Source of the DNA: Halalkaliarchaeum desulfuricum
GTDB lineage: Archaea; Halobacteriota; Halobacteria; Halobacteriales; Haloferacaceae
DNA: 64,000 bases
Direction of reading: 5' to 3'
Assembly (NCBI RefSeq): GCF_002952775.1
Contig: NZ_CP025066.1
Coordinates: 2,790,001 to 2,854,000, forward strand
Shown here in pieces: positions 16,318 through 36,940 of this stretch (position 1 is its first letter; each line of letters begins with the position of its first letter). The notes under the pieces are model-generated. The model was not told the origin of the DNA. It did not search any database and saw only the letters and a list, made by a program, of their open reading frames with translations. The position numbers and the translations under genes were made by a program.

Positions 16318-16727
16318 TTCTGTTGGCAACTCCCCCTTATGGTTGAATACTGTTTTGATTCAGTTCTCATCTGTGATAATACACTTATACTTGACACGAT
16401 ATTCGGAATGTTGTGTTTCAGGCCCTCAGTAGATTATATACGAACAAAAATACAATAATATATATTATAGTAATCTCAAATTTTCATAATGAGATAACTA
16501 AACCGAGCCGTTTGATGATAAAAGAGAAATAGGTGTATCGATAACTGTGAGACGGCTATCCGGTAGTCCAATATCAACTGGAACGATCTTCAGTCACATG
16601 TTCACTGAGTCGATGATGGATCGTCCTCTGTTCAGGGGTGTCCTGAGACCACCCGCTTGGAGGACAACGAGTCTATACTTAAGCAGGAGATAGCGGAATT
16701 GAAGAATAACCGAGTCGAACCAGAACC
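16318..16727. other. AT-rich divergent intergenic region between protease and CxxC membrane protein
   Basis: This stretch of 410 bases has no credible gene and is much more AT-rich than its flanks, especially 16370-16500. On the minus strand a TATA-like GTATAAGTG (16381-16389) suits the protease. On the plus strand CTATACTTAA (16673-16682) suits the gene at 16728. No tRNA or obvious repeat is seen. Confidence 0.6.
16673..16682 (+). promoter_or_regulatory. TATA box of the 16728 gene
   Basis: CTATACTTAA is centred about 50 bases before the start codon. Very similar elements (TTTATACCTATT and, on the minus strand, CCTATACCTATG) precede the two paralogous genes at 33107 and 35391, which supports the call and suggests shared control. 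Confidence 0.5.
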
Positions 16728-17603
16728 ATGTCATTGAGCAATTCGTTCGACGGGCTTCGACAGCCGGAGTACACCGGCGAGAACAGGTGTCTACCGTGTA
16801 CAGTCGTCAATCTCGGGATCGCAACCGCCCTAGGGATCGGGGTCACCGGTGTCCTCGTCAGCTCCGGGACGACAATCGAACTGTCATCAGTCGTGGGCGG
16901 TGCCATCATCGCGGTATCGGCCGGGCTGATCTATCTGCGGGGGTATCTGGTTCCGGGCACGCCCACGCTGACCAAGCGGTACATGCCGCTGTGGATGCTC
17001 CGTCTGTTCGGAAAAGCGCCCGAACCCGTACGTGACGACCGGGGAAACGTCGAGGTGGAGTCGTTCCTCCTGGAGGCCGGCGTCATCGAGGAGTGTCCAG
17101 ACGATGACGATCTCTGTCTCACTGAATCGTTCGAAACCGCCTGGCGAGACCGGATCGACGCGATGCGAGATGGAGCCAACGGAGAAGCGATCGACCCGGG
17201 CATCGACGACTTCGTCGACCGGGGCGAGGTGGAGGAGGACGTCGATCTCGGGGACGTCGTGTTCGAGGAGCGAGGGAGTGCTTATGTGGCCACCCTCGAT
17301 GGCAGACGGATCGCCAAGTGGGAGTCTCGGCCGGCGTATCTCGCAGACGCTGCGGCGGCGGCAGAGCTTCGGCGACGGGCCGCCGGATGGCGCGTTCTCG
17401 GGTTCCCCGAGCGAACCGAAGTGGCTGGCAGTCTTCGGCTGTGGCTCGAAGAGTGTCCTGACTGCGAGGGTCCGGTGACGATGGATCAGGAGACGGTCCA
17501 GTCCTGCTGTCACGAGCGACAGGTGCTGGCGGCAACGTGTGACAACTGCGGAGTGCGGCTGTTCGAGGCGAACATCTCGCCAGGCGCGCTCGATTCGAAC
17601 TGA
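16728..17603 (+). CDS. haloarchaeal CxxC two-helix membrane protein with C-terminal zinc ribbon (paralog 1)
   Basis: This 291-residue protein belongs to a family I recognise only from its three copies here (also 33107 and 34546). The N-terminus has PEYTGENRCLPC, a CxxC motif just before two hydrophobic helices (about residues 25-70). The helices are followed by a conserved IYLRGYLVPGTPTLT segment. The middle is acidic and variable. The C-terminus holds CPDC...CC...CDNC, probably a zinc ribbon. Topology would place both cysteine motifs on the same, likely cytoplasmic, side. It lies between the giant protease and a DUF7344-type regulator, at the edge of the secreted-protein array. Function unknown; a membrane-associated sensor or assembly factor is possible. 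Confidence 0.75.
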   Translation: MSLSNSFDGLRQPEYTGENRCLPCTVVNLGIATALGIGVTGVLVSSGTTIELSSVVGGAIIAVSAGLIYLRGYLVPGTPTLTKRYMPLWMLRLFGKAPEPVRDDRGNVEVESFLLEAGVIEECPDDDDLCLTESFETAWRDRIDAMRDGANGEAIDPGIDDFVDRGEVEEDVDLGDVVFEERGSAYVATLDGRRIAKWESRPAYLADAAAAAELRRRAAGWRVLGFPERTEVAGSLRLWLEECPDCEGPVTMDQETVQSCCHERQVLAATCDNCGVRLFEANISPGALDSN

Positions 17604-17665: not shown

Positions 17666-18199
17666 TCAACTGAGCAACGCGTTCAGGTAGATCCAGCGTT
17701 GGCTCCACAGCTGGTAGCCCATCACGACAGCGAACACGAACAGGAACAAGGACGTCCAGAGGACCGGATCGACAGCGGAGACAAGTGGGACGTCGATGTG
17801 CGCAGCGAGGACGACGAAAAGCGAGAGCGTTCCGAGCATACGATAGACCTCGTCCCACGTGACACCGTAGTCCGTTACAACCTCCATGTAAATGCGGACT
17901 GATTTGGCGTCCTCCTCGAGCGTGACTGTCTTTCGGTCGGAATCGTACTCGATGACGCCGCGCCTGTCGAGTTTCGGGAGATGCGTCTGGTGAAGAGAGT
18001 TGTAGACGCTGTCGCGGATGTTCTTCGGTGGCGGCGACTCACCGGTTTCCTGTTCGGCGATTGCTACCGCGAGTTCCCGAAGCGTCGTCGATCCCACTGT
18101 TCGTTGCATGTGTTTGATGACCTGCTGTCGACGCTCGTTCCGGAGCAGGTCGTGGATTTGCGTTTCCGGCAACCTCTGGTAACGGTTCGTGATTCCCAT
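17666..18199 (-). CDS. membrane-anchored winged-helix regulator (DUF7344-like), left copy
   Basis: This 177-residue protein has an N-terminal winged-helix domain (LLRNERRQQVIKHM...LRELAVAIAEQETG...VYNSLHQTHLPKLDRRGVIEYD), typical of the haloarchaeal DUF7344 family, and two C-terminal membrane helices (about residues 120-165). Such proteins are presumed one-component regulators tethered to the membrane. A relative with the same layout is at 29844; the pair flank the SipW-type array in opposite orientation. Targets are unknown, but the neighbouring array is the obvious candidate. Confidence 0.8.
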   Translation of the reverse strand: MGITNRYQRLPETQIHDLLRNERRQQVIKHMQRTVGSTTLRELAVAIAEQETGESPPPKNIRDSVYNSLHQTHLPKLDRRGVIEYDSDRKTVTLEEDAKSVRIYMEVVTDYGVTWDEVYRMLGTLSLFVVLAAHIDVPLVSAVDPVLWTSLFLFVFAVVMGYQLWSQRWIYLNALLS

Positions 18200-18465: not shown

Positions 18466-18855
18466 GTGATTTCGGTCGGTGTCGGAAAAGCTGATCCGGA
18501 TACAATACAACAGATCACATCCACGGACCTGGACATCTACACGGCTGCAAACATCGACGAACGACATGACATCTTCGCTGCGATCGGCGAGACGATCCGC
18601 ACAGGCGAGGGTCTCCTCTTCGAGGGATCGTTCACTGACGCGATGCCCGAACTCGAATCCGGTAACGGAATAATTCTCAACGATCGAACAAATGATCTCG
18701 AGGAGACGTGGTATTTCGCCAAATCCGTGACGAAGCGTATTGTTCTCGAGTGGTGGTTACCGACTGGTGACGGTAACAAGGTGCAAACTGATCGCCTCGA
18801 ATTTTATTTGGAATTCTACACCGATCAGTTCCGTCACAACGAAATCGAGGCCTGA
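18466..18855 (+). pseudogene. truncated SipW-type/TasA-like protein lacking its signal and N-terminal half
   Basis: The 129-residue frame begins with GTG and has no RRK/SipW-type signal. Its C-terminal part (VLEWWLPTGDGNKVQ and FYLEFYTDQFRHNE) clearly matches the conserved C-terminal end of the array proteins (KWWFPTGQDD and FYTEQCRHNE in the 22313 product). The segment IFAAIGETIRTGEGLLFEG also matches LGDVLDDLNSDGMQLF there. It is probably a remnant left by recombination within the array, although an intact short cytoplasmic relative cannot be excluded. No matching N-terminal half is seen in the 260 bases upstream. Confidence 0.6.
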
Positions 18856-19162
18856 ATCGAATCGACAGCAGCCACTCGCGATTTTTATTCCCACGACAGG
18901 CGAGTCAATTCGCCCGTCTTCTCACCCGATTTATCAGAATTATTGGAAAACGTTGAGTATTACTACTAACTCCGAGGTAATGACTGATTATACACGATTT
19001 ACGGTCGCGAAAGCTCTTGTTACCAAATTATCCAGGGATGTTCAGGCACTCCCAGTCATCCGACAACAACCCGTTTGAGAGACAATCGCGCGATTAGCTA
19101 TGGGGGTAGGGGTAATGGGATCTACCAAGCCCGCCGGGACACCCGGCCGGGCGAGAACGACT
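18856..19162. other. intergenic region before the first intact SipW-type gene
   Basis: There is no credible gene. A weak hairpin (GGCGA/TCGCC near 18902-18917) follows the truncated gene. A TATA-like GATTATACACG lies near 18985. From 19072 the sequence is the first copy of a 147-bp repeat that runs into the next coding region. Confidence 0.5.
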
Positions 19163-19218
19163 ATGTCAGACCGGAAATTCGAGCTGTCACGGCGGAAGGC
19201 ATTGATCGGTCTCGGAAC
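19072..19218 (+). repeat. 147-bp direct repeat, copy 1 (leader plus signal-peptide start)
   Basis: This segment matches 20649-20795 with a single mismatch, 1577 bases apart. It covers about 91 bases of leader and the first 18-19 codons of the SipW-type genes at 19163 and 20740. The match ends abruptly on the upstream side. Downstream it fades through the signal-peptide codons. Confidence 0.9.
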
Positions 19219-20380
19219 CGTGGGCGTGGCGTCCGCTGGTGCCGGTTTCGGGACCAGCGCATACTTCAGCGATCAGGAAGAGTTCACTGGTAACTCGATA
19301 CAAGCAGGTGAATTTGAACTGACCGTTGAGCAGCAGGTTATCAGTATCGATCAAGACGATATTGGTCCGGATCACTTGGAGGCTGGCGAGGGTCCTGATG
19401 GTGGTGTTTGGGTTAAAGACACCATTGAGATTGAGGACGCGAAACCGGGTGACGAGTACGAATTCTGTTGGGACATCACCATCGACCACAACCCCGGATA
19501 TGTAGCCGTGGCGGCCGATTACGACGACTGGACTGGAGCTGAGGCAAGTGGTTTGGATCCTGACGACCTCCATGACGTTGACGATGAGGGCGATATGACG
19601 ACACTCGGTGAAGCAACAGAGGTCCAGTCGGTTTCGCTCGAGAACGGTGACGAAGTAACATACGAATATGACTATCTTGGGGACCTCCTCGCGGATCTCG
19701 AGAGCGGCGCACTTATAGATGATAACGATGACCCGATCCAGTTCGACGAAGGAGTAACTTGGACCCTGTGTGTCGAACTGAAGATTCCGACCGATGTCGG
19801 AAACGAACTCCAAGGCGCGCGCCTGGAGTGGGATCTGCTGTTCTACGCAGAACAGGCCCGACACAACGATGGCGCCGACATGGAATCCACTGCTGCGAAT
19901 GCTCTTGTTGACTTTCCGAACAACCCGTTCCTAGACGACGCGCAGACCGATAACGGCGGTCTGTTCGCAAATCTCGGAGGCGGAGAGGTTGTCCCTCTCG
20001 AGGAAGGCACAAAAATGAGCGATTTCCCGACCGGTGAAGTGGACGCACTGGATACTCCATTCATGCAGTCAGTGTACGCGAACACGACTGACGAGTCGAT
20101 CTCGATCGAGGTGGAGTCGATCGGGTTTGGGCCCACGGCCCAAGTATTGGGTGTTGATCCGTACAATGAGACCGAATTTGGCGTCGACGACCAGTGGTAT
20201 CGCATTCCGATCGGGATCGGAACACCGTATCCGATCGATGCTCCCGAAACCGCATGGGATGAACACGGGAACTTTGAGGGAGCGCCAATGCAAGGTGGTC
20301 CGGAAGGCGACTACGAACTCGTTGAGGTCAGCGAGACTGAGGATGGGTTCAAAGTCGTATGGGAGTATCTTGGTGAATGA
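19163..20380 (+). CDS. SipW-type secreted protein (TasA/camelysin-like) with extra C-terminal domain
   Basis: This 405-residue secreted protein starts at ATG 19163 (MSDRKFELSRRK); an in-frame ATG at 19100 would add 21 non-signal residues. The signal has a twin arginine (LSRRKALIGLG), a hydrophobic stretch and the SipW-type boundary GTSAYFSDQEEFTGNSIQAG. The beta-sandwich domain carries the family markers DAKPGDEYEF, NPGYVAV and LEWDLLFYAEQARHND (ending near residue 235). About 165 further residues, absent from the other array members, form an unknown C-terminal domain. Bacterial relatives (TasA, CalY) are cut by SipW and build fibres. Here it is a likely substrate of the peptidase at 27772. 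Confidence 0.85.
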   Translation: MSDRKFELSRRKALIGLGTVGVASAGAGFGTSAYFSDQEEFTGNSIQAGEFELTVEQQVISIDQDDIGPDHLEAGEGPDGGVWVKDTIEIEDAKPGDEYEFCWDITIDHNPGYVAVAADYDDWTGAEASGLDPDDLHDVDDEGDMTTLGEATEVQSVSLENGDEVTYEYDYLGDLLADLESGALIDDNDDPIQFDEGVTWTLCVELKIPTDVGNELQGARLEWDLLFYAEQARHNDGADMESTAANALVDFPNNPFLDDAQTDNGGLFANLGGGEVVPLEEGTKMSDFPTGEVDALDTPFMQSVYANTTDESISIEVESIGFGPTAQVLGVDPYNETEFGVDDQWYRIPIGIGTPYPIDAPETAWDEHGNFEGAPMQGGPEGDYELVEVSETEDGFKVVWEYLGE

Positions 20381-20648
20381 AATCAGTAGCCAGATTACAG
20401 AGATATCTCACAACCACCTGAGCAAGACGCTGATGGCATGATATAAAAATCAGCTCTCTTTCATATTTTTGATCTTGGGAAGGATAGGTATGGCGACCCC
20501 GGGGATGCCGAAATTAACGATAAGCTCAGCTTCGAACTCACCTTTTGAAAGTCCGATTTCACTCACCTCGCTGCCGATTGGCCCCATTATTTCGTGAGTA
20601 GGGGCGCCTTTCCGGATCGCAATCAGTCTATACGGCTTCAAAACGAGA

Positions 20649-20795
20649 CGTTTGAGAGACAATCGCGCGATTAGCTATGGGGGTAGGGGTAATGGTATCT
20701 ACCAAGCCCGCCGGGACACCCGGCCGGGCGAGAACGACTATGTCAGACCGGAAATTCGAGCTGTCACGGCGGAAGGCATTGATCGGTCTCGGAAC
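20649..20795 (+). repeat. 147-bp direct repeat, copy 2
   Basis: This is the second copy of the leader/signal segment at 19072-19218, with one mismatch. A TATA-like TCTATACGG lies just before this copy, which would place transcription start at about the left edge of the repeat. No equivalent box is evident before copy 1. Confidence 0.9.
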
Positions 20796-21522
20796 AGTGG
20801 GCGCGGCGTCCGCTGGTGCGGGACTGGGAACGAGCGCGTACTTCAGCGACCAGGAGGAGTTCACCGACAACAGCATTCAGGCCGGTACGTTTGGTCTGAC
20901 TGTTGACCAGTATGTAACAAACGTTGATCAAGATGGTCTTGGACCAGATCAGGAGGACTGGGAGGCTGACCAAAATGATACCGGAGTCTGGGTTAACACC
21001 CCCGAAATTGGAATTGAAGACGCCAAGCCCGGCGACGAGTACGAGTTCTGCTGGGAGGTAACAGTTGAAGATAACCCGGGATACGTTGCAGTCACAGGAG
21101 AATACGACGACTGGAACGGTGTTGATGTGGATAATATCGAGCTTGAAGACCTGTGGGACATTGATGATGAGGAAGATCTCTCGACAATTGGTGATGAAGC
21201 ACTCGTCACGGAACTCACTATCACAGTTCCCGGCGAAGATGATGATGAAACGGTGTACAAGTTCGGAGGTGATTATGATACCTTCGGGGATCTCCTCGAT
21301 GCTATTGAAGACGACGGCGTCCTGCTACACGACGAAGGGGGGGACGGCATCCAGATCGAGGCAGATCAAACGGTCACGGTCTGCCTGACGCTTGATATTC
21401 CCGGAGAAGACGTGGGCAACGAACTCCAGGGTGCAAAACTCGAGTGGGACCTCACGTTCTACGCCGAACAGGCCCGGCATAACGACCCTGAAGACGTAAA
21501 ATCCGAAGCAGCCGGGCTCTGA
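20740..21522 (+). CDS. SipW-type secreted protein (TasA/camelysin-like)
   Basis: This 260-residue protein has the same layout as the 19163 product but ends after the beta-sandwich domain. Its signal is MSDRKFELSRRKALIGLGTV with the GTSAYFSDQEEFTDNSIQAG boundary. Family markers DAKPGDEYEF, NPGYVAVTGEYDDW and LEWDLTFYAEQARHND follow. The first 18-19 codons and the leader are nearly identical to those of 19163, whereas the mature part has diverged, so the 5' end was duplicated or gene-converted recently. Only eight bases separate it from the next array gene, indicating an operon. Confidence 0.85.
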   Translation: MSDRKFELSRRKALIGLGTVGAASAGAGLGTSAYFSDQEEFTDNSIQAGTFGLTVDQYVTNVDQDGLGPDQEDWEADQNDTGVWVNTPEIGIEDAKPGDEYEFCWEVTVEDNPGYVAVTGEYDDWNGVDVDNIELEDLWDIDDEEDLSTIGDEALVTELTITVPGEDDDETVYKFGGDYDTFGDLLDAIEDDGVLLHDEGGDGIQIEADQTVTVCLTLDIPGEDVGNELQGAKLEWDLTFYAEQARHNDPEDVKSEAAGL

Positions 21523-21530
21523 GTTGAATC

Positions 21531-22310
21531 ATGAGCAAAGAATTCCAATTGTCGCGCAGGAAGGCCCTCGTCGGGCTCGGCACGGTCGGCGTCGCGTCGG
21601 CCGGAGCCGGGTTCGGAACGAGTGCCTACTTCAGTGACCAAGAAGAGTTCACTGGGAACTCCATACAGGCCGGCGAATTCGAACTTACGGTCGAACTACT
21701 AACAGGAGAGAGTACCGTTGATCAAGACGGAATCGGGCCCGATGAAGAGATTGAAAGTTGGGCTTCGGCAGTCGGTGATGATGGTGCTGAATTCGGAATG
21801 CCGATCACGATTTCCGATGCCAAACCGGGAGACACATACGAGTTTTACTGGGAGATAACGATCAACGAAAATCCTGGTTACGTACAGGTGGAAGGTGATG
21901 TACAGGAAGATGAACCCGGAGGCGATGAAGATGATGACCGCTTCGAAGAGCTTGGAGTTACACCAATCCCACTAGGGCAGTCAGATAACATTACAGCGAC
22001 GGTAGCCGTTGGTGATGAAGTAGAAGACGGCGAGTGGTCCGGTGCAGGAGAGTTCTCAAGTGAGACCTTCGATGGTGAGGGCCTTGGTGAGTTGTTCGAT
22101 GCTCTTGACGGTGACGGATTAGCACTCCGGAACGAAGATGGAGAACTGCTCACGATAGGTCCCAACGGTGATTATGATTCTGTCGTGGTATGTGTTGAAA
22201 TAGTCATATCGACGGAGGCAGGAAACGAGATTCAGAACGCATCCCACGCGTCTGACCTCAGGTTCTACGCCGAGCAAGCCCGCCACAACGAAGAGTTCAG
22301 GAGTGATTGA
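21531..22310 (+). CDS. SipW-type secreted protein (TasA/camelysin-like)
   Basis: This is a 259-residue member of the array. The signal is SRRKALVGLGTVGVASAGAG followed by FGTSAYFSDQEEFTGNSIQA. The mature domain has DAKPGDTYEFYWEI, ENPGYVQVEGDV and, at the C-terminus, LRFYAEQARHNE. The middle is strongly acidic (EDEPGGDEDDD). It lacks the cysteines found in the larger array members. It is closely spaced with both neighbours and so probably cotranscribed with 20740 and 22313. It is a likely fibre or matrix subunit by analogy with TasA. Confidence 0.85.
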   Translation: MSKEFQLSRRKALVGLGTVGVASAGAGFGTSAYFSDQEEFTGNSIQAGEFELTVELLTGESTVDQDGIGPDEEIESWASAVGDDGAEFGMPITISDAKPGDTYEFYWEITINENPGYVQVEGDVQEDEPGGDEDDDRFEELGVTPIPLGQSDNITATVAVGDEVEDGEWSGAGEFSSETFDGEGLGELFDALDGDGLALRNEDGELLTIGPNGDYDSVVVCVEIVISTEAGNEIQNASHASDLRFYAEQARHNEEFRSD

Positions 22311-22312
22311 AT

Positions 22313-24136
22313 ATGAGCAAGAAAAATAACGGATTAAAACTGTCGCGACGGAAGGCTCTCGCCGGGATCGGTGCGATCGGTGCTGCGAGCGCTGGCGCCG
22401 GAATGGGTACGAGTGCCTTCTTCAGCGATCAGGAATCGTTCGAGGGGAATAGTCTCGCTGCCGGGGAACTCCAACTCCATGGCAGCTGGCAGCAAATCTA
22501 CTACGGTGCATCACAGGAGACGCGCCCGCAGGACTACGGCGCGGCCGGTCGTCCGTGGGTGAACGCCTTCCCGGACGACGGTCAGTTCGTTGCTGATGCA
22601 GATTCCGACGGCATCCAGTCGTTGGGAGATCGCACCTACGTCGATGATCCAGATGTCGACCCGAAGTACGGCGATAATATTCAGCTCACCTGCGACGACT
22701 TCGAGGATCTACCGGACGCGCCGAGTCCGGTATTCGACCTCGAAGACGTCAAACCCGGCGATAAGGGTGAAGCCACGTTCGGGCTGAACCTCTGTGACAA
22801 TCCCGGCTATCTCTGGTTGCAGTCGGAACTCGCCGACTACGAGAACAATCCGGGGACAGAGGATCACCTCAAGGACTTCATCAAGGCGAAAGTCTGGGTC
22901 GACGAGGATTGTGACAATGTCCCAGACGGGTGTAAAGATGCGGACATCATGCTGACGGTCGACTTCTCCGGATCGACCTTCTACGACTCGTACGGAGGGC
23001 TGGTCTCGGACGACCCAATCGAAATCGGTGGTCACGAGTACGACGAAACGACCCTCGTGGATCTGGCGGAACAAGCGATCTACGAGCTGATCGTGCATCT
23101 TCGCGACGACCTCGAGTGTGAGTACAACGTCGGTGCGGTCTTCTTCAGTGGATACGATGGAGATTCGATTTCCGGTGAGGGTTCCGGCGACGCGAAACTC
23201 AGAGTGGTCGACCCAACCACGGATCTCAGTGGGTTGATCGAAGACGGCGACTACAACACGGCGGACGTTCCGGCCGACACGGGCGACGATCCCAACGAGG
23301 GCGGAGAACTGCGAAACCTCCGATACCAGCTCGCCGAGATCATCGCGCACGATCCGGATCCGGACGACGATCCTGACGAGTACGTCTGGGATCCGCGCGA
23401 AGACGTCGACGAGGAGGACATCAGTACCGGCACGGCGCTCAAGGAAGGTATCGAAGAAGCGGAAGACGTGATGGAGGACGAGTTTGGAAACCAACACAAC
23501 GTCCTCATCACCGATGGCTCACCGTGGGAAGACGGGAACCTCGGTTCAGACGACTACGAAGAGGTGTTGGAGATAGCTCACGACGCACGTGTGGACGATC
23601 TCGGCCCCCCGACGAGCATCTGTGTGATCGGCGATACGGACGAACGTGACGAGTCCGTCTACCTTCAGCAGGTGGTCGCGAACACTGCAGGCGTCGAGAT
23701 CGACGTAGATGATGCTATGGATGCCATCAACAGCATGATGTCGTCTGACACAACCCTCGACGATCACGATCCAATGGACGTCGGTGGGAACCTCGCCCAC
23801 TGGTTCCCTATCCGCGATGATAACGTGGCAACAGAACTGTACGTCATCTGTCTGAGCGATCTCCTCGGCGAGTACGTCCTCGGATACGGGACACTCGGAG
23901 ATGTGCTCGACGATCTCAACAGTGATGGGATGCAGTTGTTCCAGACGCCACGGCTCGAAGCAGACGCGTGTTTCGAACCGGGACGGACCCACTGTATTGG
24001 GTTCAAGTGGTGGTTCCCCACTGGTCAGGACGACGTCAACGACGCCCAGGGTGACTCCCTGACGTTCGACCTGTCGTTCTACACCGAGCAGTGCCGCCAC
24101 AACGAGAACCCAACTGGACCGCCAGCTGACGACTAA
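22313..24136 (+). CDS. SipW-type secreted protein with an inserted von Willebrand factor A domain
   Basis: This is a 607-residue array member; the start at ATG 22313 is chosen over an in-frame TTG at 22307. The signal is LSRRKALAGIG with GTSAFFSDQESFEGNSLAAG (to about residue 51). The TasA-like domain begins with DVKPGDKGEATFGLNLCDNPGYLWL (about 145-170) and ends with KWWFPTGQDD...FYTEQCRHNE (565-597). Between them, at about 207-470, lies a vWA domain with a MIDAS site: D217-x-S219-x-S221, STGTAL (Thr near 372-374) and ITDG (D401). vWA domains bind ligands through a metal ion, so this looks like an adhesive, possibly tip, subunit. Paired cysteines (LCDNPGY, QCRHNE) suggest disulfides. Confidence 0.85.
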   Translation: MSKKNNGLKLSRRKALAGIGAIGAASAGAGMGTSAFFSDQESFEGNSLAAGELQLHGSWQQIYYGASQETRPQDYGAAGRPWVNAFPDDGQFVADADSDGIQSLGDRTYVDDPDVDPKYGDNIQLTCDDFEDLPDAPSPVFDLEDVKPGDKGEATFGLNLCDNPGYLWLQSELADYENNPGTEDHLKDFIKAKVWVDEDCDNVPDGCKDADIMLTVDFSGSTFYDSYGGLVSDDPIEIGGHEYDETTLVDLAEQAIYELIVHLRDDLECEYNVGAVFFSGYDGDSISGEGSGDAKLRVVDPTTDLSGLIEDGDYNTADVPADTGDDPNEGGELRNLRYQLAEIIAHDPDPDDDPDEYVWDPREDVDEEDISTGTALKEGIEEAEDVMEDEFGNQHNVLITDGSPWEDGNLGSDDYEEVLEIAHDARVDDLGPPTSICVIGDTDERDESVYLQQVVANTAGVEIDVDDAMDAINSMMSSDTTLDDHDPMDVGGNLAHWFPIRDDNVATELYVICLSDLLGEYVLGYGTLGDVLDDLNSDGMQLFQTPRLEADACFEPGRTHCIGFKWWFPTGQDDVNDAQGDSLTFDLSFYTEQCRHNENPTGPPADD

Positions 24137-24140
24137 CCGC

Positions 24141-24168
24141 GGAGTCGGTTAACGACTCCCGGTCTTTT
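24141..24168 (+). terminator. stem-loop with T-run after the vWA gene
   Basis: GGAGTCG pairs with CGACTCC (7 bp) around a GTTAA loop. The stem is followed by CGGTCTTTTG. It lies four bases after the stop codon and directly before a tRNA-like structured element. Confidence 0.55.
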
Positions 24169-24209
24169 GCCCCACACGGTGTACGCCGGTTCGACTCCGG
24201 CGGTGGGGC
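24169..24209 (+). repeat. tRNA-like structured element, copy 1 (acceptor-like stem plus T-arm)
   Basis: GCCCCAC (24169-24175) pairs perfectly with GTGGGGC (24203-24209). Inside is a 5-bp stem GCCGG/CCGGC closing a 7-base loop TTCGACT, which fits the tRNA T-loop consensus TTCRANY and the B-box GGTTCGANTCC. The D and anticodon arms are replaced by nine bases (ACGGTGTAC), so it is not a functional tRNA. A second copy with altered outer stem is at 25686-25728. It ends 24 bases before the next start codon. Confidence 0.65.
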
Positions 24210-24210
24210 T

Positions 24211-24224
24211 TCCCCTTCGGGGGA
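24211..24224 (+). promoter_or_regulatory. UUCG-tetraloop hairpin just before the 24234 start codon
   Basis: TCCCC and GGGGA pair around a TTCG loop. The hairpin ends nine bases before the ATG at 24234. It overlaps the position expected for a ribosome-binding site and could influence translation or stabilise a processed 5' end. Confidence 0.4.
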
Positions 24225-24233
24225 TGAGCGATA

Positions 24234-25655
24234 ATGAGCAAGGAAAGCAGTTTCGAACTGTCGCGACGGAAGGCACTCGCCGGCATCGGCGCCGTCGGTG
24301 TGGCATCGACGGGTGCGGGGTTCGGCACGAGTGCGTACTTCAGCGACGAGGAATCGTTCGAGAACAACACGATGACGGCCGGGGAACTCGATCTCAGGCT
24401 CGACTGGCAGCAACTCTACTGGGGGATGCCCTATTATCATGATCAGGCACCCTACGGTTCCGCTGGACGGCCATTCGTGAACGCCCATCCCGACCATGAC
24501 GATGACGGGATGCAGTCGTTGGATGATGACACCCGATACGTCGACGGTGATCCCGGCGACGATATGAACTGGTCCATGGAAGATGTCGAGGACGGCGCAA
24601 ATATCCAGGAGGACCTAACTTGCGAGACCCTGGATAACTTCGGTGATCCCGACAGCTTCCACAACGACAACGGGTTCGAGCCCGACTCGCTGATCGATCT
24701 CGACGACGTGAAGCCGGGAGACTGCGGGGAAGTGACGTTCAGCTACCACCTGTGTGACAACCCCGGCTACGTCTGGCTTTTCGGCGAGTTGGCCGACGAT
24801 ATCGACGATGAACTCGCCGAAGCAATCGAGGTGAAGTTCTGGTACGATCTCGGCTGTAACAACGTTTTCGACGAGGAGCAGGATCAATTGATCTTCCAGT
24901 GGGGGAGCATGGCAGAACTGCTCCCGTACTTAACTGAGGGACTCCAACTTGATCCCCGAGTTTATGGGGAAAATCACGACGGAGACACCGGCGATGGGGG
25001 AGACGATAGTGGTGAATGCGTGAAAGTTGGCAAGGTCGATGTCAACGAAGACGGGACATTCGGTGAGGTCGATGGTGGCACCAAGGAGAATGGGAACGTA
25101 TTCAATTTCGATGATGACGCGAACGCACCTCCGTGGTCCGGTGGTGGTGACTACAAAGCGCGGGACGTGACGGTAGAAGTCGAGATCACAGAGTTCGAAG
25201 ATGAAGACAATGAGGAGGAACCGGTTTCGATTAAAGCAGAAGTCATCGACGGCGATTATGGACTCTGCCGAATCAGGGTAAATGGCGGTCAGGACAGTGA
25301 AACCTTCTATGACCTCGGGGAAGGTGAAGAGGCCTGCGTCACTGAAACGCGGGAACTGGAAACGAACCTTCGTAATCCCGGAGACCAGCGTGCTGCGATC
25401 AGTAACATCGAGTTCTTCGTCTGTGACATCGACGAAGACGACGTTCCACCACCGAACCTGTGCTTCCCGGCTGACGAGACGTTCTGTGTCGGATTTAAGT
25501 GGTGTCTACCAACTGATGTCGATGTCGAAACAATCGACGGGATCGACGACATCAACGATCTCCAGGCAATGTCCTTGAGCTTCGACCTCGGCTTCTACAC
25601 CGAGCAGTGTCGCCACAACGACGATCCGACTGGCCCATCCGGAGCCATGGACTGA
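24234..25655 (+). CDS. SipW-type secreted protein with inserted acidic beta domain
   Basis: This is a 473-residue array member. The signal is LSRRKALAGIGAVG with GTSAYFSDEESFENNTMTAG. The core shares DDVKPGDCGEVTFSYHLCDNPGYVWL (about 160-185) and ends in CVGFKWCLPTD...FYTEQCRHND. Between about residues 262 and 400 an extra domain begins GECVKVGKVDV and ends EFFVCDIDED. The 26641 product has a similar insert, so this is a mobile or inherited module. It is cysteine-rich and probably disulfide-bonded outside the cell. The gene sits between the two tRNA-like elements, unlike its neighbours, which are tightly packed. Confidence 0.85.
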   Translation: MSKESSFELSRRKALAGIGAVGVASTGAGFGTSAYFSDEESFENNTMTAGELDLRLDWQQLYWGMPYYHDQAPYGSAGRPFVNAHPDHDDDGMQSLDDDTRYVDGDPGDDMNWSMEDVEDGANIQEDLTCETLDNFGDPDSFHNDNGFEPDSLIDLDDVKPGDCGEVTFSYHLCDNPGYVWLFGELADDIDDELAEAIEVKFWYDLGCNNVFDEEQDQLIFQWGSMAELLPYLTEGLQLDPRVYGENHDGDTGDGGDDSGECVKVGKVDVNEDGTFGEVDGGTKENGNVFNFDDDANAPPWSGGGDYKARDVTVEVEITEFEDEDNEEEPVSIKAEVIDGDYGLCRIRVNGGQDSETFYDLGEGEEACVTETRELETNLRNPGDQRAAISNIEFFVCDIDEDDVPPPNLCFPADETFCVGFKWCLPTDVDVETIDGIDDINDLQAMSLSFDLGFYTEQCRHNDDPTGPSGAMD

Positions 25656-25685
25656 AGCCGACTCATCCCCCGACTCCCGATTTAC

Positions 25686-25728
25686 GCCCACGCTGGTGCG
25701 CGACGCCGGTTCAATTCCGGCGGTGGGC
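25686..25728 (+). repeat. tRNA-like structured element, copy 2
   Basis: GCCCAC (25686-25691) pairs with GTGGGC (25723-25728). The inner hairpin is GCCGG/CCGGC with loop TTCAATT, again a T-loop match. The linker is 13 bases instead of nine. Upstream GACTCCCG is shared with copy 1. The outer stem is changed but still paired, and the loop remains a T-loop. It ends 18 bases before the start at 25747. Confidence 0.65.
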
Positions 25729-25746
25729 TTCAATCACCGATATCGC

Positions 25747-26457
25747 ATGCACCCCAAAAACGTCTCCCGTCGCCAACTGCTCGCTGGCGTGGCGAGCATG
25801 GGCGCAGCTTCGATAGCCGGCCTCGCCTTTGCGACCGAGCGCAGCCGCGCGTTCACCGAAACGACCCAGCTCCAGACCGGTTCGATCGACGGCCTCCTGC
25901 TTGACTGGCGGGAAAAGTACAACGACACACCCCTTACGGACACGACCGATGGTGCAGCGTCGCCGTCTCCCACCGGCCCAGCAATCTCGCTCGGAAACGT
26001 CCTCCCGGGCGATTCCGGATCACTCAGCGTCCAACTCCGACTCGACACTGAAAACGAAGACGCCGACGACGTCGAGGTCGAAACAGAACTGAGCTTCGAT
26101 CTCACTGGCGACCTCCAGTCGCCGGGGCTTCAGGAGTTCATTCACGCCGCGGTCTGGTACGACACCGGCTTCCTGGAAGTGGACGCCTTCGGCGCGCGCA
26201 ATGCGGAACGCGATCCCGGGGAGCAACTGGTCCACCCCGACGCCGAGGGAACGCTCGAGGACGTGACGACCGCGCTTTCGGACGGGGTCGCCCTCGATAC
26301 GAACCCCAACGCCCCGACAGAATCGACCTGCCTCTCCGGGTCGGACAAAGTCACGGTCACGTTCTGGTGGTGGTTCCCCACGGACCAGGAGAACATCAAC
26401 GCGGTCCAGGGCGATACCGTCGAGTTCGACATCCGATTCGACGCTGAACAATGTTAA
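25747..26457 (+). CDS. short Tat/SipW-type secreted protein
   Basis: This 236-residue protein begins at ATG 25747 (MHPKNVSRRQLLAGVASMGA), an apparent twin-arginine signal. The SipW boundary is degenerate (LAFATERSRAFTETTQLQTG) and lacks the YFSD motif. The mature part keeps the family pattern: LGNVLPGDSGSLSVQLRL, then FWWWFPTDQENINAVQG, then VEFDIRFDAEQC at the very end. It is a divergent member of the array. Its start is 18 bases after the second tRNA-like element, and a gap of about 180 bases separates it from the next gene. Confidence 0.75.
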   Translation: MHPKNVSRRQLLAGVASMGAASIAGLAFATERSRAFTETTQLQTGSIDGLLLDWREKYNDTPLTDTTDGAASPSPTGPAISLGNVLPGDSGSLSVQLRLDTENEDADDVEVETELSFDLTGDLQSPGLQEFIHAAVWYDTGFLEVDAFGARNAERDPGEQLVHPDAEGTLEDVTTALSDGVALDTNPNAPTESTCLSGSDKVTVTFWWWFPTDQENINAVQGDTVEFDIRFDAEQC

Positions 26458-26640
26458 GTCGGATCGCTCCAGCGCCCTACCTCGGTTTAGGGATTGATTT
26501 CCGAAGTAATCCGGTTCTCAGGCTCGGCCTTCACTGGCTACAATGAGCCTATACTCATATGATAACCTCGCGTGAGGTACTCACACGAACGTGGTGGAGG
26601 ATGGGGTCACCACACCTGCAGCCATGGGGACGATACCACT

Positions 26641-27669
26641 ATGTCCGATAAGGGATACTCGCGCCGACAGATTCTGGGGGCAATAGCAGGAGTCGGCGTA
26701 ACTGGTGTTACTGCCGGATTCGCCACGCGAGCCTACTTCCACGATCGAGAGATATTCACCGGGAACAGATTCCAGGCTGGCGCTCTCTCGCTCGAACTCG
26801 CCGGCGCTGGCGTCGAAGACGAAGACTCCGTGACCGACTTCCCGACCGAAAGCGACTTCGAGAACGGGGATACGGTCTCCGTTACGTTTCCCGAACTCGA
26901 GCCCGGCGACGAAGGCGTGTTCTCGACTGCGTATCGACTGTGTGAAAACCCCGGGCGCGTGTGGGTGCGCACTCACCTTATCGGGGCAGAAGAAACCGAA
27001 CTCGAGAACTATCTCGACGTCAGATTCGCTTCTCGTCCCGACTGTGAACCGCGCCCGGAAGGCGAAAAGGACATCCTCTTCGAAGGGACGCTCGGTGATT
27101 TTCACGGGACGTATTCCGGTGGCAAGCTACTGGAGTGTCGATACCTGGGGAAGATCGAACACGACGAGGACACGGGGGAGTTTTACTTCGACGACGAGGA
27201 CGAGGGTGCGGTGACGAGTCAGGATCCCCCGGTATTCGAGTTCACTCCGGACGGCGAGGATTCGGTGACGATCGAACTGACAAACGTGAAGACGAACGAC
27301 GACAGGGAGGTCATCGAGTTCGACTACGAGGTGACAGACGGCCCCGGCGTGTGCGAGGTCACGACTGTCGGCGGGGGTGATCCTCCCGGACCCAAACGAA
27401 AATACTACGTTTATGAGGGTTGCCGGAGTGTGGATTACGGACTGACGCCGCCGGATCACGACAAAACCGATGGCGTCTACGGGTTAAGCCACGTGGAGTT
27501 TTACGCCTGTGGCGGCTGCCACGGGTGTCCCCCGGGGTGTCTCGACCTCGAGTGGGTGTTCGACGACGATCCGCCCGAAGAGCTGCTGGACGATACGCTC
27601 GAACTGCAACTCGAGTTCCGCGCGATTCAGTGTCGACACCAGACCGAACCGAACAATCCCTGGAGCTAA
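26641..27669 (+). CDS. SipW-type secreted protein with inserted beta domain, second copy
   Basis: This 342-residue protein starts at ATG 26641 (MSDKGYSRRQILGAIAGVGV); an in-frame start at 26572 would add 23 unrelated residues. The signal boundary is FATRAYFHDREIFTGNRFQAG. Core motifs ELEPGDEGVFSTAYRLCENPGRVWV and LQLEFRAIQCRHQTE match the family. An insert from CRYLGKIEHDEDTGEFYFDD to HVEFYACGG resembles the one in the 24234 product. Cysteines are numerous (CGGCHGCPPGC near the end). It is followed closely by the signal peptidase gene, its likely processing enzyme. Confidence 0.82.
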   Translation: MSDKGYSRRQILGAIAGVGVTGVTAGFATRAYFHDREIFTGNRFQAGALSLELAGAGVEDEDSVTDFPTESDFENGDTVSVTFPELEPGDEGVFSTAYRLCENPGRVWVRTHLIGAEETELENYLDVRFASRPDCEPRPEGEKDILFEGTLGDFHGTYSGGKLLECRYLGKIEHDEDTGEFYFDDEDEGAVTSQDPPVFEFTPDGEDSVTIELTNVKTNDDREVIEFDYEVTDGPGVCEVTTVGGGDPPGPKRKYYVYEGCRSVDYGLTPPDHDKTDGVYGLSHVEFYACGGCHGCPPGCLDLEWVFDDDPPEELLDDTLELQLEFRAIQCRHQTEPNNPWS

Positions 27670-27771
27670 CATGCACCGACGAACCACCGCATCGATCGAC
27701 CACCGAACTCCGAAGCCCTCGATTGGTGGAACTCTCGGGACTGTCGAGCTTTGCAACTGGAGGTGTCACCC

Positions 27772-29238
27772 ATGTCGCTGACACGGCCAACCCTGCGCCA
27801 GGTCCTCAACATCGTGGGCTTGCTGCTTTTGCTCGCGATCGTGATCCCGTTCGTCATCTATGCTGTCCCCGGAATCATCGGCGCCGAGGGTGGCTACGTG
27901 GTGCTTTCTGGTAGTATGGAGCCCGCGATCAGCGTCGGCGACGTGGTGATCGTCGACGACGTCGAAGCCGAAGCTATCCAGGAGAACGACGTGATCACCT
28001 ACGTTCGGGGTGGCGAGGAGACGCCGACGACCCACCGCGTCGTCGAGGTACTTGAAGAGGATGGCCAACTCGCCTTCCGCACACAGGGTGATGCAAACGA
28101 CGAGCCGGATGCGACACCAGTGCCGGCAGAGCAGGTCAACGGCAAGGTTATTTTGACCTTCCCGTACATCGGCTACGTCGTCGAGTTCGCGAACACGCCG
28201 TACGGATTCGCTGCGCTGGTGGTCGTCCCGTTCCTGCTTTTGGTCATCTCGGAGCTGTACACCTTCTTCAAAGGGAAACGAGAAGAGATGTCCGAAACGC
28301 AGTCGGCGGACTCGCCGGAGGCTGCAGACGGACCCTCCGATGAGGCTGTAGATTCTTCCCCACCCGTTCCGGATGACGGAACGGCTGCTGCAGCCGCAGG
28401 CGACACCGGGGAGGACGGCGAAACTGACGACGATACGATCGCGATCACGCGTACCGATCTTCGCCTGTCGCTGTTGTTGCTCATCGGGATTGCGATCTAC
28501 TCGGGATGGATCGTGACGCTGATCCAGGAACCGTGGTCGTTCGCAGTTGCATTCGCCTCGGGGATCGGCGTGCTGCTGGTCGGTGGGATGTACTATCTCG
28601 CGGGCACACAGGAACTGCCCGCGGAGCCCGAAACTGGGAGTGTCCCGGACGATCCGGCGATGGATTCGGAGCAGTCTGATCCGTCGACGTCGATAGACAC
28701 CGGCGCCGGGATCGCCGCTAACGGGGCGTCTGACGGTGCTGGAGTTGCTACTGAGAGACAGGCTACCTCGCAAGGAAACACAGCCGCCTCCGACAGTCGA
28801 GTCATCTCCGGCACTCTGCGGTCGGAAACGCAGGAGTATCCCGAAGTCGTGGTCGACTCCTTCCGACAACTGGAAACGATGGCAACGACTGACGACGACT
28901 GGATCGTCGACGACGACGAAACGGGCGGATATCACCTCGTCCGGAACGGAACTATCTACAGCCGGTACGTGGAGCGTTCCCCGGATGCGGACGGGACTGA
29001 CAGTGATCCAGGTTCCCCAGACTCGTCGGAAGAAGTGTCGGAAGCAACCAATGGCGAGGAGCCGATTGATTTCTTAGAATCGGAATCGGAGTCGGAACTG
29101 GAACCGGAGTCGGAACTGGAGGAACCGGAGTCGGAACTGGAGGAACCGGCGGAGTCAAAAGGATCTGACTCGGCTGTAAATTCGGAAGAACCGAACGTAG
29201 ATCGAGAAAACAAGGAGGGTCGTCCCAATGCCAACTGA
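27772..29238 (+). CDS. SipW-like signal peptidase (S26B, ER/archaeal type) with long C-terminal region
   Basis: This is a 488-residue type I signal peptidase. The start at ATG 27772 has GGAGGTG six bases upstream; an in-frame TTG at 27751 is rejected. After one N-terminal helix come the catalytic serine motif VLSGSMEPAI and the THRVV motif, where His replaces the bacterial Lys. A second helix follows (GFAALVVVPFLLLVISELYTFF). The C-terminal half has two more helices and long acidic low-complexity linkers, ending in Glu/Pro/Ser repeats. Placed at the end of the array, it is the probable SipW-equivalent for its substrates. It overlaps the small gene at 29228 by 11 bases. Confidence 0.88.
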   Translation: MSLTRPTLRQVLNIVGLLLLLAIVIPFVIYAVPGIIGAEGGYVVLSGSMEPAISVGDVVIVDDVEAEAIQENDVITYVRGGEETPTTHRVVEVLEEDGQLAFRTQGDANDEPDATPVPAEQVNGKVILTFPYIGYVVEFANTPYGFAALVVVPFLLLVISELYTFFKGKREEMSETQSADSPEAADGPSDEAVDSSPPVPDDGTAAAAAGDTGEDGETDDDTIAITRTDLRLSLLLLIGIAIYSGWIVTLIQEPWSFAVAFASGIGVLLVGGMYYLAGTQELPAEPETGSVPDDPAMDSEQSDPSTSIDTGAGIAANGASDGAGVATERQATSQGNTAASDSRVISGTLRSETQEYPEVVVDSFRQLETMATTDDDWIVDDDETGGYHLVRNGTIYSRYVERSPDADGTDSDPGSPDSSEEVSEATNGEEPIDFLESESESELEPESELEEPESELEEPAESKGSDSAVNSEEPNVDRENKEGRPNAN

Positions 29239-29557
29239 CAGTCAGTCACGAAAAGTCGCCGTATTCGTTTTGGTTGTAACGATATTCTTCGCAGCACTCA
29301 CCGGCGGATTCGCCACTCACGCCGCGTTCACAGATAGCGGAACCGCCGCCGTGGAGTTCGGCGTTGCAGCGGTGAACTCCGGGACTGCGGCAATGAACGA
29401 CGAGACGACATCGGCGTTCGATTCACCGACCGTCCCATCTCAGACAGGGGATGATACGGGAGAAATGAGTCAGGAACTCCCAACCACTGCTGCCGCCGTT
29501 GGTTCCTTCGCCGGGGCTCGACTGCCAGCTATCTCGGATACCTCCCCACGCTTTTGA
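29228..29557 (+). CDS. small SipW-type exported protein coupled to the signal peptidase
   Basis: This 109-residue protein has a hydrophobic signal (KVAVFVLVVTIFFAALTGGFA) and a SipW-like boundary (THAAFTDSGTAAVEFGVAAV), but no twin arginine and no beta-sandwich markers. The short mature part is Ser/Thr/Ala-rich and probably disordered. The gene overlaps the end of the peptidase gene by 11 bases, implying translational coupling. It may be a minor or initiating subunit comparable in role to TapA, but that is speculation. Confidence 0.65.
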   Translation: MPTDSQSRKVAVFVLVVTIFFAALTGGFATHAAFTDSGTAAVEFGVAAVNSGTAAMNDETTSAFDSPTVPSQTGDDTGEMSQELPTTAAAVGSFAGARLPAISDTSPRF

Positions 29558-29843: not shown

Positions 29844-30449
29844 ATGGCATCCGGAACGGTAGAACAGTTATTGAGGGGGGAATCGCAGGAGTCAACGGAG
29901 ACTCCGAACCAGGACGTACTTTCGCGGAACGATATATTCGAGGTACTGCGAAACGAACGACGACGATTAGCGCTTCAATATCTCGAGGAGTGTGACACAA
30001 ACGCGGTACCACTGAACGAGGTAGTCGATTACGTGACGAGTCGGCAAACCGGTGAGTCGATGGATAATCTCGATTCGGGAAATCGGAAGGCCGTCTATAC
30101 GGCTCTCCGCCAATCTCATTTTCCGAAAATGGACAAAATCGGGGTCATCGATTACGATCCGCTCCGGGGAGAGGTTGAAATCACTGACGCCGCAAAGGAC
30201 GTTCAGATGTACCTGGAGTACGTCCCAGAAGACGAAATCCCGTGGCACGAGTATTATCTGGGGCTGACAGCCGTTACCGCTGCACTGGTTGCGGTAACGT
30301 GGCTCAGTATTTTCCCGTTTCATCAACTCTCCTGGCAGGTGGTTGCCGTGCTCATGGTCCTCCTTTTCGGCCTCTCTGCGGTGACACACACGTTTTACGC
30401 GAAACAAAACGAGATCCGCTTCGAGAACTTCTTTCGAGACGAACGGTGA
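29844..30449 (+). CDS. membrane-anchored winged-helix regulator (DUF7344-like), right copy
   Basis: This is a 201-residue relative of the 17666 product. The winged-helix domain (EVLRNERRRLALQYLEE...YTALRQSHFPKMDKIGVIDYD, about residues 32-115) is followed by an acidic segment and two membrane helices (about 137-180). The winged-helix region shows clear similarity to the left copy; flanking parts are more diverged. Together they bracket the SipW-type array, this one reading away from it. It is preceded by its own TATA box and a strong ribosome-binding site. Confidence 0.8.
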   Translation: MASGTVEQLLRGESQESTETPNQDVLSRNDIFEVLRNERRRLALQYLEECDTNAVPLNEVVDYVTSRQTGESMDNLDSGNRKAVYTALRQSHFPKMDKIGVIDYDPLRGEVEITDAAKDVQMYLEYVPEDEIPWHEYYLGLTAVTAALVAVTWLSIFPFHQLSWQVVAVLMVLLFGLSAVTHTFYAKQNEIRFENFFRDER

Positions 30450-34545: not shown

Positions 34546-35391
34546 TCACCGATACGATCCGTTGAATACCGACGCCCCACACTCCGTACAGTCCCGGGAG
34601 ACGTTGACGTACTCGCCCGAACAGCAGGTTTTGGTGACGTCCTCGATCGACGTCAACTCCCCGTCACAGTCCGGGCACCGCTCGAGGAACGCGCGGAGAC
34701 TGGCCAGCAGTTCGCCGCTCTGTCGTTGATCGAGTTCGTCCCAGACCGACAGCCACTCCCCCAGCGTGGGTTCCGCGCCGAGGTCGGCCAGAAATGCCGC
34801 CCGTGAACTCCACCGACCCGCTGTTACGCCGTCGATCGTCACCTCGAACGGGTCCTCGCCGGTGACGGAAACGTCGTCGGGATCGACCTCGAGGACGGCT
34901 GCGAGCTGCTCGAGAGCCAGGTCACCTTCCCGAAACCGTTCGATCCGGTCCCACCACGCCTCCTCGAACGCTGGAGTGAGACAGAGGTCGTCTACGTCTT
35001 CACAGTCGTCGACTATTCCGGCGTCTGCGAGCAGTTCTCCGACGTGTTCGTACTCCTCGAGCACGTGGTCGGTACCATCGTCCATTTCGGCCGCAACACC
35101 CCCGTCGGTGTCGAAGGCATCCTGGGTCGGGATCGGCTCCTTCCCGAACCACTGGAGCACGCGATCCGGAAAGTACCGCTGCGTGATCGTGGGGGTTCCC
35201 GGGACGAGGTACCCCCTGAAGTAGATCGCGGTTGCGCTCACCAGAAGCACGAGGAAGCCGGCGATCGCCGACACGAGACCAACCGCGAGGGCGAGAATCA
35301 CCGCGAGCACCGAGTTCAGGAGCGTACACGGTACACACCGGTTTTCACCCGTGTACTCGGGGCGCCGAAGCCGATCGAGTCCAGTCGACAT
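34546..35391 (-). CDS. haloarchaeal CxxC two-helix membrane protein with C-terminal zinc ribbon (paralog 3)
   Basis: This is a 281-residue relative of the 16728 and 33107 products. It has RPEYTGENRCVPCTLLN, two helices, YFRGYLVPGTPTITQRYFPD, an acidic middle, and a C-terminal CPDCDGEL...CC...CTECG ribbon. It is closer to paralog 1: both share the segment RYxPxxxLxxFGKxPxP after the helices and a DDLCLTxxFExAWxDRI block. The start could also be the ATG at 35403, which adds MILA. The nearby TATA box allows either. Confidence 0.75.
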   Translation of the reverse strand: MSTGLDRLRRPEYTGENRCVPCTLLNSVLAVILALAVGLVSAIAGFLVLLVSATAIYFRGYLVPGTPTITQRYFPDRVLQWFGKEPIPTQDAFDTDGGVAAEMDDGTDHVLEEYEHVGELLADAGIVDDCEDVDDLCLTPAFEEAWWDRIERFREGDLALEQLAAVLEVDPDDVSVTGEDPFEVTIDGVTAGRWSSRAAFLADLGAEPTLGEWLSVWDELDQRQSGELLASLRAFLERCPDCDGELTSIEDVTKTCCSGEYVNVSRDCTECGASVFNGSYR

Positions 35392-35428
35392 TGCCAGTAT
35401 CATGGTAGTGAAGTTCCGTTTCCCGTTA

Positions 35429-35440: not shown

Positions 35441-35687
35441 TCGATTACCCGCCGGAACTGTTGTGGTGACCCCCGTTCAGGGCTCCGTTGAGATGGGATC
35501 CCGGCGTGTTATCTCGCATCGAGGAACCACCGGGGAGTGATCGCGACCGAGACCGCCGTCGGCCGTTTTGCTCCCGAACCCGACGTTCAGGCCCTCCCTG
35601 ATGTCGAATAACATGGAGTTACGTTCGGGGCAATGTCTGATTACCTAAGGGGGAGAGAACCGAACGACAGGCCAGGTGTTTGGGGGG

Positions 35688-36854: not shown

Positions 36855-36940
36855 ACACGAGTGAAAAACACGAGAGACCATTCGGAGAGAGAAACGGAGG
36901 AACACGACATGATTCAACTGAACGGAGGACAGCACGATGA
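36851..36940 (+). CDS. 29-codon coupling ORF between signal peptidase and DUF5305-like gene
   Basis: The frame starts in the stop codon of the peptidase gene (ATGA, 36851-36854) and ends in the start codon of the next gene (ATGA, 36937-36940). The predicted peptide is polar and basic (MNTSEKHERPFGERNGG...). It may be a real micro-protein or simply a device that passes ribosomes on to the next gene. No ribosome-binding site other than the overlap is needed. Confidence 0.3.
   Translation: MNTSEKHERPFGERNGGTRHDSTERRTAR

Follow-up and report, generated by a model that had tools for sequence, protein, structure and literature searches.

What does a haloarchaeon build from a row of related secreted proteins whose genes stand beside that of a signal peptidase? 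The question is raised by positions 18466-29557 of a 64,000-nucleotide stretch of the Halalkaliarchaeum desulfuricum genome (NZ_CP025066.1, positions 2,790,001 to 2,854,000; this whole stretch is called the window, and genes are named by their first position in it). Every open reading frame that an earlier note had named in this region was found at the same coordinates, and together they encode seven intact SipW-type secreted proteins, one remnant, a signal peptidase and a small overlapping gene (Table 1). Having computed fold, signals, conservation, an inserted vWA domain, tRNA-like minihelices and their covariation, we judge it likely that the locus is a hetero-polymeric surface-fibre operon of the TasA/camelysin type and that tRNA mimics are probable cleavage sites in its transcript. 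The earlier note had anticipated the TasA analogy, but three features had escaped it: the vWA insert of 22313, the tRNA-like elements in gaps between genes, and the wide conservation of the small gene that is coupled to the peptidase gene.

Most array proteins match the TasA/camelysin family

The earlier note claimed a shared signal for the array and, in all genes but the last, a recurring KPGD motif, a description that holds for most but not all of the members. Five of the seven intact subunits (19163, 20740, 21531, 22313 and 24234) match TIGR04088, the NCBIfam model of the SipW-dependent signal, with 24.7-36.3 bits at a curated cut-off of 19 bits. The score of 26641, in which the signal reads AYFHD, is sub-threshold at 14.3 bits, and the same search found nothing in 25747 (which lacks AYFSD), in 29228 or in the remnant 18466. 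The leader of 29228 is hydrophobic, ends in HAAFTD and has no twin arginine. KPGD is invariant or almost invariant across an alignment of 41 sequences but is replaced by LPGD in 25747 and by EPGD in 26641.

PF12389, the TasA/camelysin profile, is matched above its gathering score by four of the seven intact subunits (19163, 20740, 22313 and 24234) and slightly under its cut-off of 22.5 by 21531 (21 bits); 25747 and 26641 do not reach the gathering score. Across the alignment, 35 of the 41 sequences match this profile (E <= 0.001). In 20740, an N-terminal stretch aligns to profile positions 20-55 and a C-terminal stretch to positions 134-193. An N-terminal FxD and the motifs KPGD, NPG, GN..Q and Q.R.N are invariant or nearly invariant in the 41 sequences, the N-terminal Phe almost so, and the Pro of KPGD and the two Gln residues of GN..Q and Q.R.N without exception.

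The predicted fold points to the same family. An AlphaFold (AF2) model of mature 20740, built on the 41-sequence alignment, has a mean predicted local distance difference test (pLDDT) score of 85.7, and its residues 1-13 are mostly of low confidence, which is what a free donor strand would be expected to show. When the model was compared with the PDB by Foldseek, the TasA fibre 8aur ranked first (E 1.8e-4) and was the sole match below 0.001, while VIA-align returned the TasA structures 8aur, 5of2 and 5of1 at ranks 1-3 (Z 9.3, 8.2 and 8.1), followed by an unrelated entry at Z 6.8. Structure prediction on a mature subunit, a check that the earlier note had suggested, has therefore placed TasA entries at the top of the PDB matches. 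Profile matches and predicted fold together support a TasA-type reading of the array.

In TasA filaments, F29, Q232 and F200 line a pocket between subunits that receives P62, and this inter-subunit ‘proline box’ (F29, P62, Q232) is the most conserved part of the camelysins (PMC10151520). The haloarchaeal sequences keep the residue types of the proline box with little or no variation, and from the alignment ends we infer that these conserved residues are structurally equivalent to the TasA interface. In the alignment with 8aur, model residue 8 lies opposite TasA residue 35. If residue 28 is where mature TasA begins, these two residues are equally far from the mature N-termini of their proteins.

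One subunit carries a predicted vWA domain

The AF2 model of 22313 (pLDDT 74.6) contains a vWA domain at about residues 171-485 (Z 19 over residues 171-482), flanked at both ends by beta-sheet elements that correspond to the TasA-like part. As modelled, 22313 is a vWA domain set into a TasA-like shell. The best structural matches of this domain include CMG2, integrin I domains and the pilus adhesins Mfa5, SpaC and PitA. PF00092 (VWA) is matched by 19 of 38 aligned sequences, but the copy in 22313 itself falls below threshold, and so the assignment is based on the model and on the DxSGS motif, which is invariant across the alignment of this subunit. Subunits bearing this vWA signature occur in 74 of 114 loci. 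Because of its vWA domain with a metal-ion-dependent adhesion site (MIDAS), 22313 is a candidate tip or side adhesin.

A SipW-like peptidase and a small coupled gene follow the subunits

The product of 27772 is a signal peptidase I of the archaeal and endoplasmic reticulum (ER) type (TIGR02228, cut-off 51.85), and its alignment to human SEC11C shows Ser, His and Asp motifs of the catalytic type. The earlier note had called it equivalent to SipW. By sequence, however, it is SipW-like and not a SipW equivalog, since it scores 118.2 bits against the equivalog model NF046067, whose cut-off is 190 bits. A Zot-like match in PHROGs, located in the acidic tail of low complexity, was disregarded. The peptidase is probably dedicated to the array. 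Of the five peptidases in this genome, the two that accompany arrays score highest; the peptidase tree, which is poorly resolved and has few members from outside arrays, does not prove a dedicated clade.

In most loci, a small coupled gene overlaps or abuts the peptidase gene, and its leader is hydrophobic and ends in motifs such as GTVAVFSD or HAAFTD. In the window this gene is 29228 (109 amino acids), which gave no match to the TapA hidden Markov model TIGR04087. Judged by its sequence, 29228 is like TapA in position and leader only and is not a TapA homologue.

Related arrays are widespread among haloarchaea

A TIGR04088 scan found such genes, mostly clustered, in 30 of 60 relatives. Two sets of loci were examined further, one comprising 40 loci of relatives plus the window (41) and the other 73 loci from an independent collection, with some organisms common to both. 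A contig scan with 22313 alone gave no matches; an alignment query found the loci of relatives. Related subunits recur in all 41 and all 73 loci, and thus the array is not a chance assembly. A signal peptidase is nearby in 36/41 and 62/73 loci, several of the others being short contigs, and this neighbourhood survey bears out the prediction of the earlier note that array and peptidase are conserved together in other genomes.

The related arrays, in about 110 haloarchaeal loci that include Halorubrum, Halobellus, Halonotius and Natrialbaceae, follow a common plan in which a divergent DUF7344 protein is followed by typically 3-6 subunits, an ER/archaeal-type peptidase and the small coupled gene. 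The family of the DUF7344 protein at 17666..18199, a probable regulator, adjoins arrays in 35 of the 41 loci. A second SipW-type array lies about 0.7 Mb away in the same genome (C1:2086673-2094558, L040), with its own peptidase, a coupled small gene and three minihelices.

tRNA-like minihelices lie between subunit genes

Two elements in the array (24169-24209 and 25686-25728) can each form a 12-base-pair acceptor/T-arm minihelix with a 7-nucleotide T-loop, and scans of relatives found the same minihelix in most of their arrays. Rfam returned no significant known RNA in the region and ARAGORN no tRNA, results that rule out tRNA genes. To keep the selection free of pairing, all array gene starts with TTCRANY at most 90 nucleotides upstream were taken. 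A perfect 5-base-pair T-stem is present at 123 of the 173 array gene starts with an upstream T-loop-like motif, compared with 4/149 other gene starts; one of these four precedes an unrecognised array-type gene and two resemble tRNA-type sequence. Among 52 short-loop elements, 97.3% of cells pair, a value that is inflated because the elements were filtered for complementarity. The same elements contain 53 double-changed cells versus 14.6 +- 2.8 after shuffling, exceeding all 500 shuffles, and these double changes are not accounted for by filtering alone.

The placement of the minihelices is selective. Considering all loci, they occupy 98 of the 147 gaps of 80-400 nucleotides before core subunits, none of the 70 gaps before the peptidase, and none of the gaps that are overlapping or 0-20 nucleotides long. 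Their 3' ends are mostly 20-28 nucleotides ahead of the start codon, the distance to the upstream stop codon is variable, and a CCCC/GGGG hairpin often comes next, as it does after 24169..24209.

A covariance model of the element (R1) matches eight places in the genome of the window. Two of them belong to this array and three to the second one, one is elsewhere, and the remaining two lie directly upstream of the two 5S rRNA genes (C1:908140 and 2924838; L174 ~3163, L175 ~3861). The t-element upstream of 5S rRNA is processed by tRNase Z in Haloferax, and published cleavage by tRNase Z or RNase P concerns this t-element and engineered t-elements only (PMC4326828, PMC3296008). Its recovery, which had not been planned, serves as a positive control of structure but does not bear on whether the elements in mRNAs are cleaved.

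Minihelices were also seen between the genes of DUF1102 arrays of relatives, which encode pilin-like proteins with twin-arginine leaders (L161 4411-12542, L162 3705-6382, L163 5581-6278 and L164 3298-12982); the PDB entry 9p0a, ‘Pilin’, looks like a DUF1102 member. R1 also has matches in some other operons, several of them plasmid- or provirus-like (before genes in L166, L170, L172 and L179), and the minihelix is thus not confined to fibre genes.

Proposed mechanism and alternative explanations

In the mechanism that we propose, precursors are probably exported in folded form by the twin-arginine translocation (Tat) pathway, given their twin-arginine leader, and the adjacent SipW-like peptidase would cut them directly before Y/F-F-S-D. 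The freed N-terminus would then act as a donor strand and, like that of TasA, occupy the groove of the following subunit. The small subunits 19163, 20740 and 21531 would make the shaft, and the larger ones would bear decorations, foremost the vWA/MIDAS domain of 22313, whereas 29228 might start, anchor or cap the fibre in the manner of TapA. Probable cleavage of the two minihelices in the mRNA by tRNase Z (and RNase P) would detach the downstream cistrons and determine how much of each subunit is made.

Several points weigh against this model. Its evidence consists of genes and models, from which export route, secretion, cleavage site, polymerisation into filaments, subunit roles and RNA cleavage are all inferred. 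With TM-scores of 0.38-0.44, the similarity of the 20740 model to TasA is moderate, and TasA was reached by the fold search but by none of the sequence-profile searches of the PDB. Both 25747 and 29228 depart from the common motifs. Many arrays and some wide gaps are without a minihelix, the covariation set had been pre-filtered for complementarity, and Hoelzle and colleagues reportedly saw in 2012 no in vitro cleavage of a selection of further t-elements predicted in Haloferax.

Fibre formation itself is argued for by homology, and the array proteins might instead be TasA-like by descent and yet act as separate monomeric surface or secreted proteins, for example as vWA adhesins. Inserts and sizes are indeed very diverse (~230-900 amino acids), the polymer state is a prediction from homology, and the vWA subunit could act alone. 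We nonetheless regard monomers as unlikely, given that the conserved residue types are those of the inter-subunit interface of TasA and that several subunits and the peptidase constantly co-occur. It is far less probable still, to the point of being nearly negligible, that these proteins are secreted metallopeptidases of the M73 camelysin type, as the name Peptidase_M73 borne by PF12389 might imply. The same profile also represents the TasA family, the conserved residues look structural, and the zinc-protease motif HExxH is present in none of 489 array proteins, which likewise disfavours the possibility, raised in the earlier note, that the array yields only soluble secreted enzymes.

For the minihelices, the most serious competitor to cleavage is that they act uncut, by structure alone, on translation initiation or mRNA stability. 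A site 20-28 nucleotides before the start codon fits translational control, as does the hairpin that often comes next, but the T-loop and the 12-base-pair acceptor/T stack are kept like those of the 5S t-element, beyond what a translational hairpin needs, and we consider this explanation doubtful while giving it more weight than any of the other alternatives. Integrases often target tRNA T-arms, and the minihelices could therefore be recombination sites that mimic tRNA 3' ends for tyrosine integrases, with the array consisting of exchangeable cassettes. Array diversity, a tandem duplicate and signs of horizontal transfer agree with this idea. It is nevertheless improbable, because conservation and covariation extend to both strands of the acceptor stem, the distance to the start codon varies little, unlike that to the upstream stop codon, gene order is conserved, and no recurrent integrase-like family was noted among the neighbours, for which no integrase model was run. 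Cleavage of the transcript thus remains our preferred account of the elements in this locus. The broader proposition that haloarchaea divide surface-fibre mRNAs, both of TasA-type and of DUF1102 pilin arrays, by tRNA mimics that tRNA-processing enzymes cut to set dosage is tentative, and we rate its chances as somewhat short of even.

Locus layout, neighbouring genes and origin

Table 1. Features of the array and its borders, in window positions.
Position	Strand	Feature	Evidence
17666..18199	-	DUF7344 protein, winged-helix-like, divergent from the array	Pfam PF24035 97 bits
18466..18855	+	Remnant, C-terminal part of a large-type subunit, without signal	
19163..20380	+	TasA-type subunit, C-terminal extension of ~150 amino acids	TIGR04088 30.8 bits, PF12389 24 bits
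20740..21522	+	Minimal TasA-type subunit, core fold	AF2 model, TasA at top ranks
21531..22310	+	TasA-type subunit	TIGR04088 30.9 bits; PF12389 21 bits, cut-off 22.5
22313..24136	+	TasA-type subunit with predicted inserted vWA domain (MIDAS DFSGS)	AF2 model and motif
24169..24209	+	tRNA acceptor/T-arm minihelix, t-element-like, before 24234	R1 62 bits; fold z -3.0
24234..25655	+	Large TasA-type subunit, Cys-rich, own insert	TIGR04088 24.7 bits, PF12389 25.1 bits
25686..25728	+	Second tRNA acceptor/T-arm minihelix, before 25747	R1 50.8 bits; fold z -2.6
25747..26457	+	Divergent subunit, twin-arginine leader, LPGD, without AYFSD	67 matches in 33/41 array loci
26641..27669	+	Final subunit ahead of the peptidase, AYFHD, EPGD, Cys-rich	140 matches in 41/41 array loci
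27772..29238	+	Archaeal/ER-type signal peptidase I, SipW-like, long acidic C-terminal extension	TIGR02228 114.6 bits
29228..29557	+	Small coupled gene, hydrophobic leader ending HAAFTD, low-complexity tail	11-nucleotide overlap with peptidase gene
29844..30449	+	Second DUF7344 protein, downstream	PF24035 83 bits

The mature form of 20740 probably starts at Y34, between GTSA and YFSD. This gene and 19163 share 86% DNA identity over 300 nucleotides that include upstream DNA, and they are a recent tandem duplication in which ~100 nucleotides of upstream DNA were copied along. The earlier note had correctly read 18466 as a remnant, whose 91 matches (E at or below 1e-3) are spread over 34 loci and are chiefly large array subunits.

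Adjoining the array on the minus strand (9556-16329) is a gene for what its translation suggests is a 2257-residue secreted subtilisin-like protease with many repeated domains. Two copies of an array-neighbour family (21/41 loci), with a CxxC-like N-terminus and no Pfam match, are found at 16728-17603 and 34546-35403. At 35676-38331, a further ER-type signal peptidase is followed by a membrane protein, possibly of DUF5305.

The GC content of the array is 57%, compared with 61% and 64% in its flanks, and at third codon positions (GC3) it is as low as 52%. Several array genes have their nearest counterparts in Natrialbaceae, a family to which most of the sampled relatives do not belong, and in the single genome from the same genus (G001) no such array was seen. 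Together, these characteristics suggest horizontal transfer.

Comparison with known systems and implications

The haloarchaeal array shares the TasA fold and KPGD with TapA-SipW-TasA of Bacillus subtilis and sipW-calY1-calY2 of B. cereus. It further resembles the Bacillus system in its SipW-type signal with an aromatic P2' residue, its adjacent ER-type peptidase and the small gene that overlaps the peptidase gene, an overlap also noted for TapA and SipW in Bacillus (PMC10151520). In contrast to the one or two subunits of Bacillus, the haloarchaeal system has 4-7 diverse ones, as well as twin-arginine leaders, a vWA-bearing subunit, tRNA-like elements and a coupled gene that is not a TapA homologue. 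Homology lends good support to a fibre. The array differs from known TasA systems in being multi-subunit, putatively twin-arginine exported and equipped with a vWA subunit, and we found no description of haloarchaeal TasA arrays in openly readable journal papers.

The AbpA bundling pili of Pyrobaculum calidifontis are an archaeal donor-strand fibre described as TasA-related (PMC9674648, PMC10151520). The comparison with TasA, camelysin and AbpA that the earlier note had proposed yields PF12389 matches, but AbpA is absent among the fold matches listed for the 20740 model, and an AbpX chain is a sequence match only below threshold (E 0.27). A vWA/MIDAS domain on a beta-sandwich pilus subunit, as in 22313, is found in Mfa5 (type V pilus tip) and in SpaC and PitA of Gram-positive bacteria; their shaft family is different, and a tip role for 22313 is suggested by this analogy.

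The most surprising part of the locus is its intercistronic t-elements. Like the 5S rRNA t-element, they are acceptor/T-arm minihelices without D and anticodon arms and are matched by the same covariance model, but they sit between protein genes, ahead of a start codon, and their cleavage is a prediction. DUF1102 pilins of haloarchaea also form arrays of proteins with twin-arginine leaders and have the same intergenic minihelices, although they are another protein family and are absent from this locus.

If our proposal is true, the TasA family of biofilm fibres extends to a widespread multi-subunit system of haloarchaea, which would be a naturally occurring hetero-polymer that carries an integrin-like adhesin domain. 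Division of the mRNA, if it occurs, would give every subunit mRNA its own end and dosage, and the composition of the fibre would be set at the RNA level. Enzymes of tRNA processing would then divide operons of protein genes, and this post-transcriptional mechanism could be tested in archaea that are amenable to experiments.

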